Positions 4,654-38,525 of a stretch of 64,000 nucleotides of DNA are shown piece after piece. Position numbers and translations under genes: made by a program. This DNA comes from Natronococcus sp. A-GB1. GTDB lineage: Archaea > Halobacteriota > Halobacteria > Halobacteriales > Natrialbaceae. Where the stretch lies: assembly GCF_029688845.1 (NCBI RefSeq), contig NZ_JARUKW010000020.1:1-64000 (forward strand), written 5' to 3'. The notes below the pieces were generated by a model that saw only the letters and a program-made list of their open reading frames with translations, searched no databases and was not told where the DNA came from. The first letter of the stretch is position 1; every line of letters begins with the position of its first letter.

Positions 4654-5634
4654 TCAGGAAGCCTCCGCGAGGATCTCGCGCTGTTCCTCGAGCTGTTCGT
4701 CGCTGATCGGCGCGTAGCCGTTGTCGCGGACGTACTGCTGGCCCTCCGTGAGGACCCACTTGACGAAGTCGGCCGCCTCCTCGTCGAACTCGCCGTTGGC
4801 GGCCAGGTACATGTCCCGGGCCGGCGGGGAGGGGTAGCGGTCCTCCTCGACGGCGGTGAGGAACTCGTCGCGGGTCTCGTAGAACTCCTCCTCGGGAGAG
4901 AGTGTCCCGCTCTCGTCGCGGTCGAGCGGAACCGGGCGGATATTCATCTCGAGGTCGCCCGTATTGAAGTCGTAGACGTAGTTGATGTTGTTCAGCGAGA
5001 TGCCGTGGGAGTCGTTGTTGATCGCCTGAGCGACCTGCTGGTCCCCGTCGAAGTTGCCGTCGGCCATGTCCTCGAGTTCGTTCTCGGTGTAGCCGCCGAG
5101 GAACTCGCCCCACTGCTGGTAGGCCGCCGAGGAGTCCGAGCGCCCGTAGACGAAGATGGGTTCGTCGACGTCGCCGTCGACAAGCTCGCCCCAGTTCGTG
5201 ATTTCCTTGGAGAAGATGGCCGCGAGCTCGTCCTGCGTGAGGCCGTTTTCCCAGAGCTCGCCGAAGATCGGGTTGTCGACGTTGACCGTGCCGACGACGG
5301 TGTCGATGAGCATCGCGGTGGCGACCAGCCCCTGTTCGATCTCCTCCTCGTCGGGGTCGCGTCCCATCATCGCGATGTCGACCTGGTCGTTCATGACGTC
5401 GGAGACGCCGACACCGGTTCCGCCGCCGGAGACGTCGATGTCGACGTCGCGTTCGTCGGTGTAGATATCGGCCCAGACCTGTACCATCGGCAGCGGGCCG
5501 ACGCCGCCGGAGATGCGAATCGTCGACTCCGAGCCGGCATCGGAGTCCGACCCCGCCAGACAGCCCGAAAGCGCAACCGCAGAGCTGGCCCCGAGGGCAG
5601 CTAGTGCAGAACGACGCGAGTAACCCCGATTCAT
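4654..5634 (-). CDS. pstS: PstS-like substrate-binding lipoprotein
   Basis: The 326-aa exported binding protein starts with a Tat-type motif (YSRRSALAALG) and a lipobox ending LSGC, so it should be anchored outside the membrane by lipid. The PBP-like fold is indicated by SGGVGPLPMVQVWADIY, NWGELV and the RSDSSAAYQQW stretch, which lies where PstS proteins normally read RSDGSGT; the altered residues fall in the anion-binding loop. The ATG at 5634 is chosen because GGGAGG sits 5-6 nt upstream and the signal peptide begins there; the frame continues upstream without a plausible signal. First gene of the pst-like operon. Confidence 0.85.
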   Translation of the reverse strand: MNRGYSRRSALAALGASSAVALSGCLAGSDSDAGSESTIRISGGVGPLPMVQVWADIYTDERDVDIDVSGGGTGVGVSDVMNDQVDIAMMGRDPDEEEIEQGLVATAMLIDTVVGTVNVDNPIFGELWENGLTQDELAAIFSKEITNWGELVDGDVDEPIFVYGRSDSSAAYQQWGEFLGGYTENELEDMADGNFDGDQQVAQAINNDSHGISLNNINYVYDFNTGDLEMNIRPVPLDRDESGTLSPEEEFYETRDEFLTAVEEDRYPSPPARDMYLAANGEFDEEAADFVKWVLTEGQQYVRDNGYAPISDEQLEEQREILAEAS

Positions 5635-5985: not shown

Positions 5986-6975
5986 CTACGCGCCGAACAG
6001 CATCGAGAGGACGACGAGCGAGACCGTGCTGGCGACCACCAGTGCGAGCAGGACGACGAGCGCGGGCGTCAGTCCTGTGCTCCGAAGCTCCGCGAGCTGG
6101 ATCTCCGTGCCGAGCCCGACGAACGCGAGTACGAACAGCCAGTTGTAGGCGTTCTCGATGGACGCCTGCTGGGCCGACGAGAAGACCCCCGCACTCGCCA
6201 GCGCGACCAGAACGAGGAAGCCGAGCACGAACTTCGGGAACTCGTCCCAGAGGGTTCGCAGGGAGGGACGACCCGCGGATCCCGAGCGGGCGTAGTAGCT
6301 CGCGTAGGCGATGACGACGGCGCCGATCAGGGCGTTGCGCGAGAGCTTCGCCATCGTCGCCCACTGGCCGGCGACCTCCGAGTGGGCGAACCCCACGGCG
6401 ACGACGGGTCCCGTCGAGAACATGCTGACGCCGGCCCAGACCCCGAAGACGACGTCGGAGAGCCCGAGCAGATCGCCGACGATCGGGTAGACGACGATCG
6501 TGATCGCGTCGAACAGCAACACCGTCGCCGCCGCGTAGGCGATCTGCTCTTCCCGGGCCCGGATCGCGCCGGCGACCGCGACGACCGCGGAGACGCCACA
6601 GATCCCCGATCCCGCTGCGAGCAGCGAGCCGAGCTGGTCCGCCAGCCCGAAGACGTTGCGCGCGAGCAACTCGACGACGAGAATCGTCAGCGTCGTCACG
6701 GCGACGACGACCAGCAACACGAGTCCGCCGACCTCGAGGATCGTCTCGAGGGTCAGCGACGCGCCCATGAGGACGATCCCGGCACCCAGCCAGAGCTTGT
6801 GGGTGTTGATCCCCGGCTCGAGCCGGTCGGGAACGCCGACGGTGTTCGCCAGCACGAACCCGAGCGCGATGGCGACGAGCAGGTGGTTGAACCCGACGGT
6901 CAGCTCGACCGCTCGCGCGAGAACGGCGCCGAGAAGGAGTGCTGCCAGCCCCGGAAGAAACCGCGCGGCCGACAT
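5986..6975 (-). CDS. YeiH/UPF0324-family membrane protein (putative sulfate exporter family), copy 2
   Basis: The 329-aa polytopic protein is clearly paralogous to the one at 763-1746. They share long identical blocks, including the GSGICG core, the IAYAAATVLLFDA segment and GVWAGVSMFSTGPVVAVGF. The ATG at 6975 (MSAARFLPGL) matches the N-terminus of copy 1 in position. It follows the stop of the 46-aa gene by 4 nt, so the two are probably co-translated. The longer frame back to 7092 would overlap that small gene and is not used. Transported substrate unknown. Confidence 0.87.
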   Translation of the reverse strand: MSAARFLPGLAALLLGAVLARAVELTVGFNHLLVAIALGFVLANTVGVPDRLEPGINTHKLWLGAGIVLMGASLTLETILEVGGLVLLVVVAVTTLTILVVELLARNVFGLADQLGSLLAAGSGICGVSAVVAVAGAIRAREEQIAYAAATVLLFDAITIVVYPIVGDLLGLSDVVFGVWAGVSMFSTGPVVAVGFAHSEVAGQWATMAKLSRNALIGAVVIAYASYYARSGSAGRPSLRTLWDEFPKFVLGFLVLVALASAGVFSSAQQASIENAYNWLFVLAFVGLGTEIQLAELRSTGLTPALVVLLALVVASTVSLVVLSMLFGA

Positions 6976-15431: not shown

Positions 15432-15520
15432 TCTTCGACCGGTTCGTTATATAGGGCTGCCTGTGAGACTCGCGTTCCGTACAGGCGAACGACGTCTCAG
15501 CTCGGTCCGACCATCCACCT

Positions 15521-15655
15521 GCGGTGGCGCGCGCTGTCGGCCGTCCGAACGTCAGAGGACGGTCGACGATGCTGTGCGAGGGATGAGCGAGGGAGCAACG
15601 CGACCGAGTGAATCGGCTGGGGAGGGCGTGGCAATCCCCTGTGTTCGTGCCAGCA
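15521..15655 (+). repeat. Dispersed repeat, copy A
   Basis: It begins GCGGTGGCGCGCGCTG (15521-15536) and continues to a GAATCGGCTGGGGAGGGCGTGG-type end (15610-15641 region). The copy at 38298-38485 shares the identical first 16 bases, and 28 of 36 bases in the 3' block. No protein is encoded. The copies differ in the middle, as expected for an old non-coding element. Confidence 0.65.
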
Positions 15656-15680
15656 GAATCTGCTCCTGTCGATATTACCA

Positions 15681-15849
15681 CGAAAGCCCCTGGCCCGCTC
15701 GAGGGCTGCGGCTCGCTGTCGTTCGAAAGGCGCGGAGCGCCTTTCGTGATGACGAGAGAGCTTTGCTCTCTCGAACCACGCTTCTCGGTCGCATCGCTCC
15801 CTGCGGTGCTTGCGTCCCCTCGCCCCTCGAGTCGGCCAGCCCCTTTCAG
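15681..15849. repeat. Inverted-repeat-bounded hairpin element
   Basis: The left arm (15681-15703) and the reverse complement of the right arm (15826-15849) share GAAAG, TGGCC and CTCGAG in order. Inside are two perfect stems: 15725-15745, with 9-bp arms GAAAGGCGC/GCGCCTTTC, and 15754-15772, with 8-bp arms GAGAGAGC/GCTCTCTC. It is about 170 bp without an ORF, like a small non-autonomous mobile or REP-like element. Confidence 0.6.
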
Positions 15850-15977
15850 TCCCACCCAGCGGTGGCTAATCAGGGGTGTAGACTCGACGCGGATGTTCCA
15901 TTCGCCGCTCTACGTAACGACTCGAGCGACTCAGCTCACCCTGTAAAACTACGTACAGAAAACCGTACTCGACTTCG

Positions 15978-38297: not shown

Positions 38298-38525
38298 TCG
38301 CGGTGGCGCGCGCTGAGCGAGGGCAAGTGGCAAGCGCCCCGTCGCTCGATTTCGTGCGAGGTCTTCGCGAACAGAGCGAGTAAAGCGTGAAAGGCGCTTC
38401 GTGCCTTCCTGTGGATGAGCCAACGAACGGAATGAGCGAGCGAATTAGCTGGAGAGGGCGTGGAAATTCACTGCTGCCAGTTTGAGGAGTCTGTCCGAGA
38501 CGGACACTGAGTTACGTACAGATCG
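38298..38525 (+). repeat. Dispersed repeat, copy B
   Basis: It begins GCGGTGGCGCGCGCTG-like at 38300 and contains a GAATTAGCTGGAGAGGGCG-type block (38440-38460) matching copy A at 15521-15655. An imperfect GAAAGGCGC / GTGCCTTCC hairpin at about 38388-38408 resembles the perfect one at 15725-15745. It ends near TTACGTACAGA (38512-38522), echoing ACTACGTACAGA at 15948-15959. Confidence 0.6.

Follow-up and report, generated by a model that had tools for sequence, protein, structure and literature searches.

A dispersed non-coding repeat family of haloarchaea, apparently transposase-free, with a fold kept on one strand

Introduction

The window, i.e. the whole stretch of 64,000 nucleotides analysed here (contig NZ_JARUKW010000020.1 of Natronococcus sp. 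A-GB1), carries two similar intergenic sequences and raises the question of what kind of element they are. The initial annotation had proposed a family of non-autonomous elements or a conserved structured RNA. REP and REPIN sequences, which are associated with RAYT transposases, are intergenic, high-copy hairpin repeats of 20–40 nt that also occur as inverted pairs. Integron attC sites and the ends of IS200/IS605 elements are recognised as folded single-stranded DNA; their structure is kep­t and their sequence varies. For Haloquadratum, PATEs are described in the consulted part of the source as transposase-free and divergent, free of terminal inverted repeats and target duplication, and with small mobile repeat (SMR) insertions in their palindromes (PMC3119063). 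Literature searches covering open-licence papers showed no description of the family presented here.

Results

Both copies contain the 16-base head GCGGTGGCGCGCGCTG without mismatch (15521–15536 and 38300–38315) as well as the block GGRGAGGGCGTGG (15619–15631 in copy 1 and 38451–38463 in copy 2). In the window alone, both motifs are near chance level, with five heads at up to three mismatches (4.76 expected) and eleven blocks at up to two mismatches (8.45 expected), and the reality of the repeat is decided by the whole genome. Throughout the genome (4.50 Mb, 57 contigs), nine exact heads and ten with one mismatch were found versus one match of the reversed control pattern, and blastn with 15515–15665 returned 44 pieces. 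The two repeats are members of a large dispersed family, and the observation made from the window holds. The second copy, previously placed at 38298–38525, exists, but its head begins at 38300. Four words were said to be shared by the copies, and head and block are indeed homologous; GAAAGGCGC and TACGTACAGA occur in both copies but are not homologous. In copy 1, the former belongs to a hairpin inserted into a second element (15725–15733), and in copy 2 to a junction hairpin within the core (38389–38397). The latter starts at 15950 in copy 1, approx. 320 nt 3' of the block, and at 38513 in copy 2, 50 nt 3' of it. At site 1, TACGTACAGA is not conserved in the sister species G148; at site 2, TACGTACAG is conserved in G148 and G147.

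In its extended form, copy 1 is enlarged by inserts and covers 15482–15905 on the plus strand, as delimited by homology to the near-identical pair L012/L019 of the same genome (from -39 of the head to GTTCCATTCGC). Its conserved core at 15521–15640 (+) was matched by the covariance model R1 with 136 bits and an E-value of 5.6e-26, the copy itself being among the eight sequences of the model. In the core, helix P1 (15528–15533 with 15573–15578) closes hairpin 1 (15537–15546 with 15557–15566), both together spanning 15528–15578 (+). Hairpin 2 follows at 15582–15614 (+) as a GA zipper, GAT-GA-GC-GA-GG-GA-GC-(AAC)-GC-GA-CC-GA-GT-GA-ATC, and the 3' block GGCTGGGGAGGGCGTGGCAATCCCC forms a third hairpin with a GG mismatch at 15615–15639 (+). 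The right part of copy 1 harbours a nested second repeat, type B (GGTGGGACTGAAAGGGGCTGGCC...GGCCAGGGGCTTTC), at 15682–15857 on the minus strand, into which two perfect hairpins (GAAAGGCGC/GCGCCTTTC and GAGAGAGC/GCTCTCTC) are inserted at 15720–15781, with no strand assigned. Copy 2 consists of the core without outer parts at 38300–38471 (+; 41 bits, E-value 1.4e-5) and has a same-site unit in G148 and G147. Its junction hairpin module (TCTTCGCGAA...TTCCTGTG) at 38362–38413 (+) is present at the site in all three species compared. The strict GA-zipper motif occurs only once in the window, in copy 1.

No credible protein is encoded by either copy, in line with the initial annotation. Long frames across both copies resemble the chance frames of a GC-rich genome and none is a credible protein; coding is also unlikely because same-site copies elsewhere differ by entire hairpins. 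Copy 1 is neighboured by a frame of 551 amino acids without Pfam match and by a carbamoyl-phosphate synthase large subunit gene. Copy 2 comes after a frame with a TAT-signal match slightly under the Pfam cut-off. Long chance frames that could be annotated as hypothetical proteins also run across units in locus L152 (3277–3567 on the minus and 4739–5632 on the plus strand). Elsewhere in the window, 782–1351 and 6011–6580 are direct repeats of 74–87% identity, 5229 bases apart, and perhaps represent duplicated genes.

The nested sequences also occur on their own. The B stretch matched without the core (query approx. 237–419) in plasmids of Natribaculum and Halomontanus (places H2–H4), and a B-like sequence in opposite orientation was seen beside the unit of L100. 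The hairpin pair at 15720–15781 (62 nt) recurs alone with 81–93% identity in plasmids of Natrarchaeobaculum, Natribaculum, Natrinema, Haladaptatus and Haloterrigena, and is a small hairpin element found within other repeats.

Model R1 was built from eight copies of the core of this genome and comprises 122 positions with 27 pairs. In the same genome it gave 25 rows at E ≤ 4.6e-4, corresponding to 24 places, since an element on contig C7 accounts for two of the rows. Across the order, matches at E ≤ 1e-3 were obtained for 66 of the 146 genomes sampled and for 32 of the 57 genera; 24 candidates were scored per genome, so that copy numbers are lower bounds. Rescoring with 150 candidates at E ≤ 0.01 led to 43 matches in G055, 25 in G024, 31 in G053 and 49 in G074. 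On the chromosome of G055, units are sparse between approx. 0.62 and 2.2 Mb and denser elsewhere. Within a phylum sample, ten of 196 genomes matched, all from the same order. An exact-pattern scan of named genomes yielded at least 117 stretches (L109–L225), and the genera among the matches listed include Natrinema, Natronococcus, Halopiger, Halosimplex, Halococcus, Halorussus, Natronorubrum, Haloterrigena and others. On plasmid records, 29 of 30 listed matches had no annotated feature beneath them and one record was unannotated, the gene table being incomplete and free of RNA genes. The exact-pattern scan of viral contigs gave no match, and distant blastn with copy 1 found none in phages. Rfam had no match to the family at gathering threshold and none in the window; copy 1 gave two hits far below threshold (E 0.95 and 2.9), and 19 loci gave two tRNAs only. 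The search of this and related genomes thus revealed a large family and excluded that just two copies exist whose similarity is confined to short GC-rich words.

According to the model, the core of approx. 120–145 nt is folded on one strand into P1 with hairpin 1, the GA-zipper hairpin 2 and a 3' hairpin. Covariation, which the initial annotation had proposed to check, was strong in the 122-position core. In alignment A3, consisting of 50 model-found matches (20 own and 30 from other genomes) and fitted to the model structure like A4 and A5, 93.5% of the cells were paired versus 74.4% in shuffles. Changes on both sides were seen for 24 of 27 pairs (14.6 in shuffles) and in 221 cells (55.4 in shuffles; at most 28 in slid controls). 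Alignment A4 draws on the first 80 of the at least 117 stretches, contains 95 matches and has one unit in common with A3. Here, 92.5% were paired, 24 of 27 pairs changed on both sides and 450 cells did so versus 139.5. Since the exact pattern used to select A4 prescribes head, mid linker and the 5' arm of hairpin 2, linker conservation is built into that set, and the linkers were assessed in A3. In the 30 A3 sequences from other genomes, the head was exact in 18 and had at most one mismatch in 27, the mid linker was kept in 25 and the block in 27. The linkers GGCGCGCGC, GYGCGAGGGATGA and TCGGYTGGGGAGG are largely kept; in the stems of hairpins 1 and 2, a change on one side is compensated on the other, and the sequence of hairpin 1 varies freely among copies. 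Helix P1 (CGCGCG of the head with YGYGCG before AGG) was paired to 98% in 50 sequences with A-U, U-A and G-C types, and changed on both sides in only one of its six pairs.

Hairpin 2 is a zipper in which steps of two base pairs alternate with GA/GA. The four GA/GA positions were occupied in 17, 28, 27 and 26 of the 30 sequences from other genomes. The strict motif was found 28 times in units and five times elsewhere in 46 model-selected loci (143,163 bases), and 56 versus nine times in 79 pattern-selected loci (622,589 bases), the latter partly by selection. A kink-turn interpretation was rejected, given the covariation of the two pairs that lie above the GA/GA loop. Taken together, selection on a strand-specific fold is very well supported.

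At shared sites, comparisons that have species in common and are thus not independent gave 14 both-side and 33 one-side changes in hairpins 1 and 2 that kept the pairing, versus 22 and 5 that broke it, with one replaced hairpin 1 left out. For hairpin 3, 15 changes broke pairing, seven stayed paired and none was compensated. At some shared sites, hairpin 1 was replaced wholesale.

Within the stems, G·T outnumbered A·C with 166:22 and 147:36 in two counts, which argues for folding of the modelled strand and not for a cruciform. The share of G·U among the standard pairs of A3 is approx. 11%. For copy 1, the fold z-score was -2.05 as RNA (-0.83 on the opposite strand) and -1.65 as DNA (-0.60 on the opposite strand).

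The hairpin tips were counted in 144 distinct units, from which 29 and 44 units without an assigned closing pair were excluded. Four-base loops of hairpin 1 were GNNA in 58 of 82 cases, and only 17 of these 58 were GNRA. The GNNA loops were closed by C-G in 51 of 58 cases and had Y as third base in 41 of 58 (p 0.002). Three-base loops of hairpin 2 were GNA in 59 of 84 cases, 53 of them closed by C-G. In hairpin 1, most of the GNNA loops were contributed by Natrinema and the genome analysed here; the GNA type of hairpin 2 is found in many genera and in only four of 12 counted tips of this genome. GA/GA loops had a YGAR context on both strands in 322 of 421 cases. Tandem G·A in YGAR context is known to be specially stable in DNA. 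GNA and GNNA loops on at least two G-C pairs are described as extraordinarily stable DNA mini-hairpins in the part of PMC4686876 consulted, and an excerpt of PMC8373063 sets GNNA in DNA beside GNRA in RNA. The tip type points to DNA; the preference is statistical, and protein-bound RNA could also use such loops.

In each of the 15-nt windows with starts between -40 and -20, at most one of 92 upstream regions had a TATA-like TTWWAW motif, and there was no peak. Based on our own simple gene calls, the neighbour contexts relative to the unit were +- 24, -- 21, ++ 18 and -+ 16 (79 units with both neighbours called), and two units lay inside a called frame. Convergent regions were slightly in excess (30% versus 22% of all neighbouring gene pairs). 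Overall, single-stranded DNA as the folding molecule, rather than RNA, is moderately supported.

Copies were compared at the same site in part of the cases. Within unrelated flanks, L012 and L019 of the own genome share 96.9% identity over 322 nt, and at the site of L012, G148 has the same flanks with a different repeat inside. This third repeat (GGCCTTTTTAGCG...GCAAAAAGG; L253, approx. 1373–1500) holds the site where the own genome has the core element and was also seen by eye in L093, L096 and L102. At the site of copy 1, the gap between the matched flanks is 41 bp in G152 and 198 bp in G149; G148 keeps the outermost parts around a different interior. G148 and G147 also have copy 2 at its site, and no unit was seen within 260 nt 3' of the gene in G150, G152, G149 and G146. 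Other DNA occupies the site of L013 in G147. The units of L002, L008, L015, L017, L018 and L024 have a same-site counterpart in at least one sister species (33 fetched regions and search hits), and hairpin modules were gained or lost within loops or junctions at such sites, including L015, L017 and L024. Since several copies are found at the same site in sister species, turnover is not only due to fresh insertion.

Most units are single, and oriented close pairs occur. Opposite pairs closer than approx. 600 nt were convergent in nine of nine cases in loci of Natrinema, Natronococcus and Haloterrigena, and those within 1.5 kb in five of five cases in G055 and G024; in G074, from the genus Halorussus, five of six opposite pairs were divergent. 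The pair in L157 is divergent and that in L094 convergent. In L152, convergent units 1.3 kb apart flank a methyltransferase-like gene, as read from the frames, and not a transposase. Orientation domains according to the replication strand were not detected along four genomes (runs p 0.32, 0.76, 0.98 and 0.57). An apparently shared position next to a helicase gene, noted for three genera, was not upheld by flank alignment.

The proposed check for terminal repeats and target duplication did not reveal inverted termini with duplication. Candidate terminal inverted repeats of own copies were rejected as they differ from copy to copy; none was consistent, with a weak GTGGC/GCCAC end match seen by eye in Natrinema only. 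Target duplication or sharp common ends were not seen at the few clean junctions (own pair L012/L019).

Among the recurrent neighbours of the units (25 largest clusters), no transposase was recognised by eye, and the genes looked ordinary. A Y1 (IS200/RAYT-type) transposase was present in six of ten copy-bearing genomes (G053, G074, G132, G070, G112, G117), absent in four (G055, G024, G140, G031) and present in eight of ten copy-free genomes. The own genome has a single Y1 match, on a contig without units. When 320 loci were scanned for the IS605 right-end motif (up to five substitutions), it was found near two own units, approx. 210 nt after the head in L008 (1714–1738, +) and approx. 80 nt before the head in L019 (approx. 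1422–1446, -). Other motif-bearing loci had been fetched via transposon flanks or had the motif away from units, and none of the at least 117 named stretches among the matches listed contained it. The flank of L019 matches several loci of sister genomes, as a transposon would. Mobilisation by IS200/RAYT as a general route was rejected after the own genome, the 20 genomes and the IS605 motif had given no general link. The Y1 and IS605 results argue against such transposition as the way in which units generally move today, though enzymes of the past may have disappeared.

Discussion

The alternative offered by the initial annotation is answered in part. Dispersed, non-autonomous and structured elements are borne out by copies throughout the order, covariation, presence and absence between species and the lack of visible coding capacity, and there is good support for a mobile repeat family of haloarchaea that lacks a transposase. 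The RNA half of the proposal did not find the same backing, given the missing TATA box, the lack of a clear gene-direction bias and the DNA-type hairpin tips. As the letters vary while the same one-strand hairpins are kept, the family looks like a mobile element recognised by its folded shape. The explanation we favour, at close to even confidence, is a transposase-free mobile family selected for a strand-specific single-strand fold, most likely of single-stranded DNA. A strand exposed in replication, repair or transfer would fold, a putative trans-acting enzyme might recognise hairpins and linkers and would copy or insert the element into intergenic DNA, and the loops of the element may accept further hairpin modules. 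Counterpoints to this reading are the four Y1-free genomes among the copy-bearing ones, the lack of the orientation domains that use of one replication strand might produce, the lack of target duplication and of sharp common ends, the same-site copies in sister species and the uncompensated breaks in hairpin 3. More tentatively, the units could form an order-wide class of extraordinarily stable single-stranded DNA mini-hairpins with GA-zipper stems and GNA/GNNA caps that is served by a putative shape-reading, possibly non-HUH enzyme.

The next reading, possible and clearly less probable, is a structured non-coding RNA, with the folded strand transcribed from an own promoter or by read-through, selection acting on the RNA fold and spread as a by-product. 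Covariation with kept linkers is typical of such RNAs, the compensatory changes were found, the G·U share would fit, and hairpins 1 and 2 keep their pairing at the same sites more often than they break. Still, the 92 upstream regions offered no promoter, neighbour directions are nearly even, Rfam gave nothing beyond the two sub-threshold hits for copy 1, and the four-base loops are mostly non-GNRA. A one-strand fold with DNA-stable loops, as expected of a folding single-stranded DNA element, was found.

The units are unlikely to be PATEs in the sense of TnpA-mobilised remnants of transposons of the IS200/IS605 type that carry palindromes near their ends. The resemblance to the PATEs, SMRs and 'SwitchRepeats' of Haloquadratum walsbyi, as far as the available part of the source describes them, is considerable, for both are haloarchaeal, non-coding, transposase-free, dispersed and palindromic without target duplication, have inserts nested in palindromes, and can hold one site with different repeats in two strains (PMC3119063). 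The units are also too short to code and, at the few clean junctions, free of target duplication, their hairpins gain and lose modules, two of them lie near an IS605 right end, and six of the ten copy-bearing genomes have Y1. However, terminal palindromes common with IS200/IS605 were not found, the IS605 link is restricted to these two own units and missing from the at least 117 named stretches among the matches listed, and no transposase was recognised among the recurrent neighbour families. Y1 is absent from G055 and G024 with their 43 and 25 matches as well as from G140 and G031, is frequent in copy-free genomes, and in the own genome lies apart from the units; it is thus not a regular feature of copy-rich genomes, although G074 with 49 matches has it. 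Unlike PATEs, the family keeps one multi-hairpin core structurally over many genera and has the GA zipper and the GNA/GNNA tips.

Old neutral debris that stays foldable through gene conversion and through template-switch repair acting on quasi-palindromes, with the fold itself under no selection, could explain the wholesale replacement of hairpin 1 and the many one-sided breaks at shared sites, hairpin 3 foremost, but is very improbable, as palindrome correction would erase the GA/GA mismatches, which persist, and the linkers are largely kept across genera.

The family acts like REPINs, PATEs and other elements read as single-stranded DNA, yet each of these comparisons breaks down at the enzyme or at the termini. 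With REP/REPIN it shares intergenic, high-copy hairpin repeats and the occurrence of some inverted pairs, most units being single; it differs by a length of approx. 120–145 instead of 20–40 nt, three hairpins, the four genomes without Y1 out of ten copy-bearing ones tested, and pairs that are convergent in Natrinema, Natronococcus and Haloterrigena and mostly divergent in a Halorussus genome. As in integron attC sites and IS200/IS605 ends, structure is kept while sequence varies; in contrast to these, no partner enzyme was found and attC-like arrays were not seen. The hallmarks of MITEs, i.e. inverted termini plus a target duplication that match a transposon, were not observed. The tips resemble DNA mini-hairpins such as d(GCGAAGC), with two pairs and a GNA or GNNA loop; those in the consulted part of PMC4686876 are short synthetic aptamer fragments, whereas the element described here is genomic and occurs in many genera.

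For annotation, the units call for caution, since chance frames across them could be called hypothetical proteins. If the folded molecule is RNA, a structured family that is absent from the Rfam copy searched would be present in 32 of 57 sampled genera. If it is DNA, haloarchaeal chromosomes would carry dozens of natural sites able to form unusually stable single-stranded DNA structures in molar KCl, shape-directed mobility would become testable in culturable archaea, and the family would point to an enzyme yet to be found.
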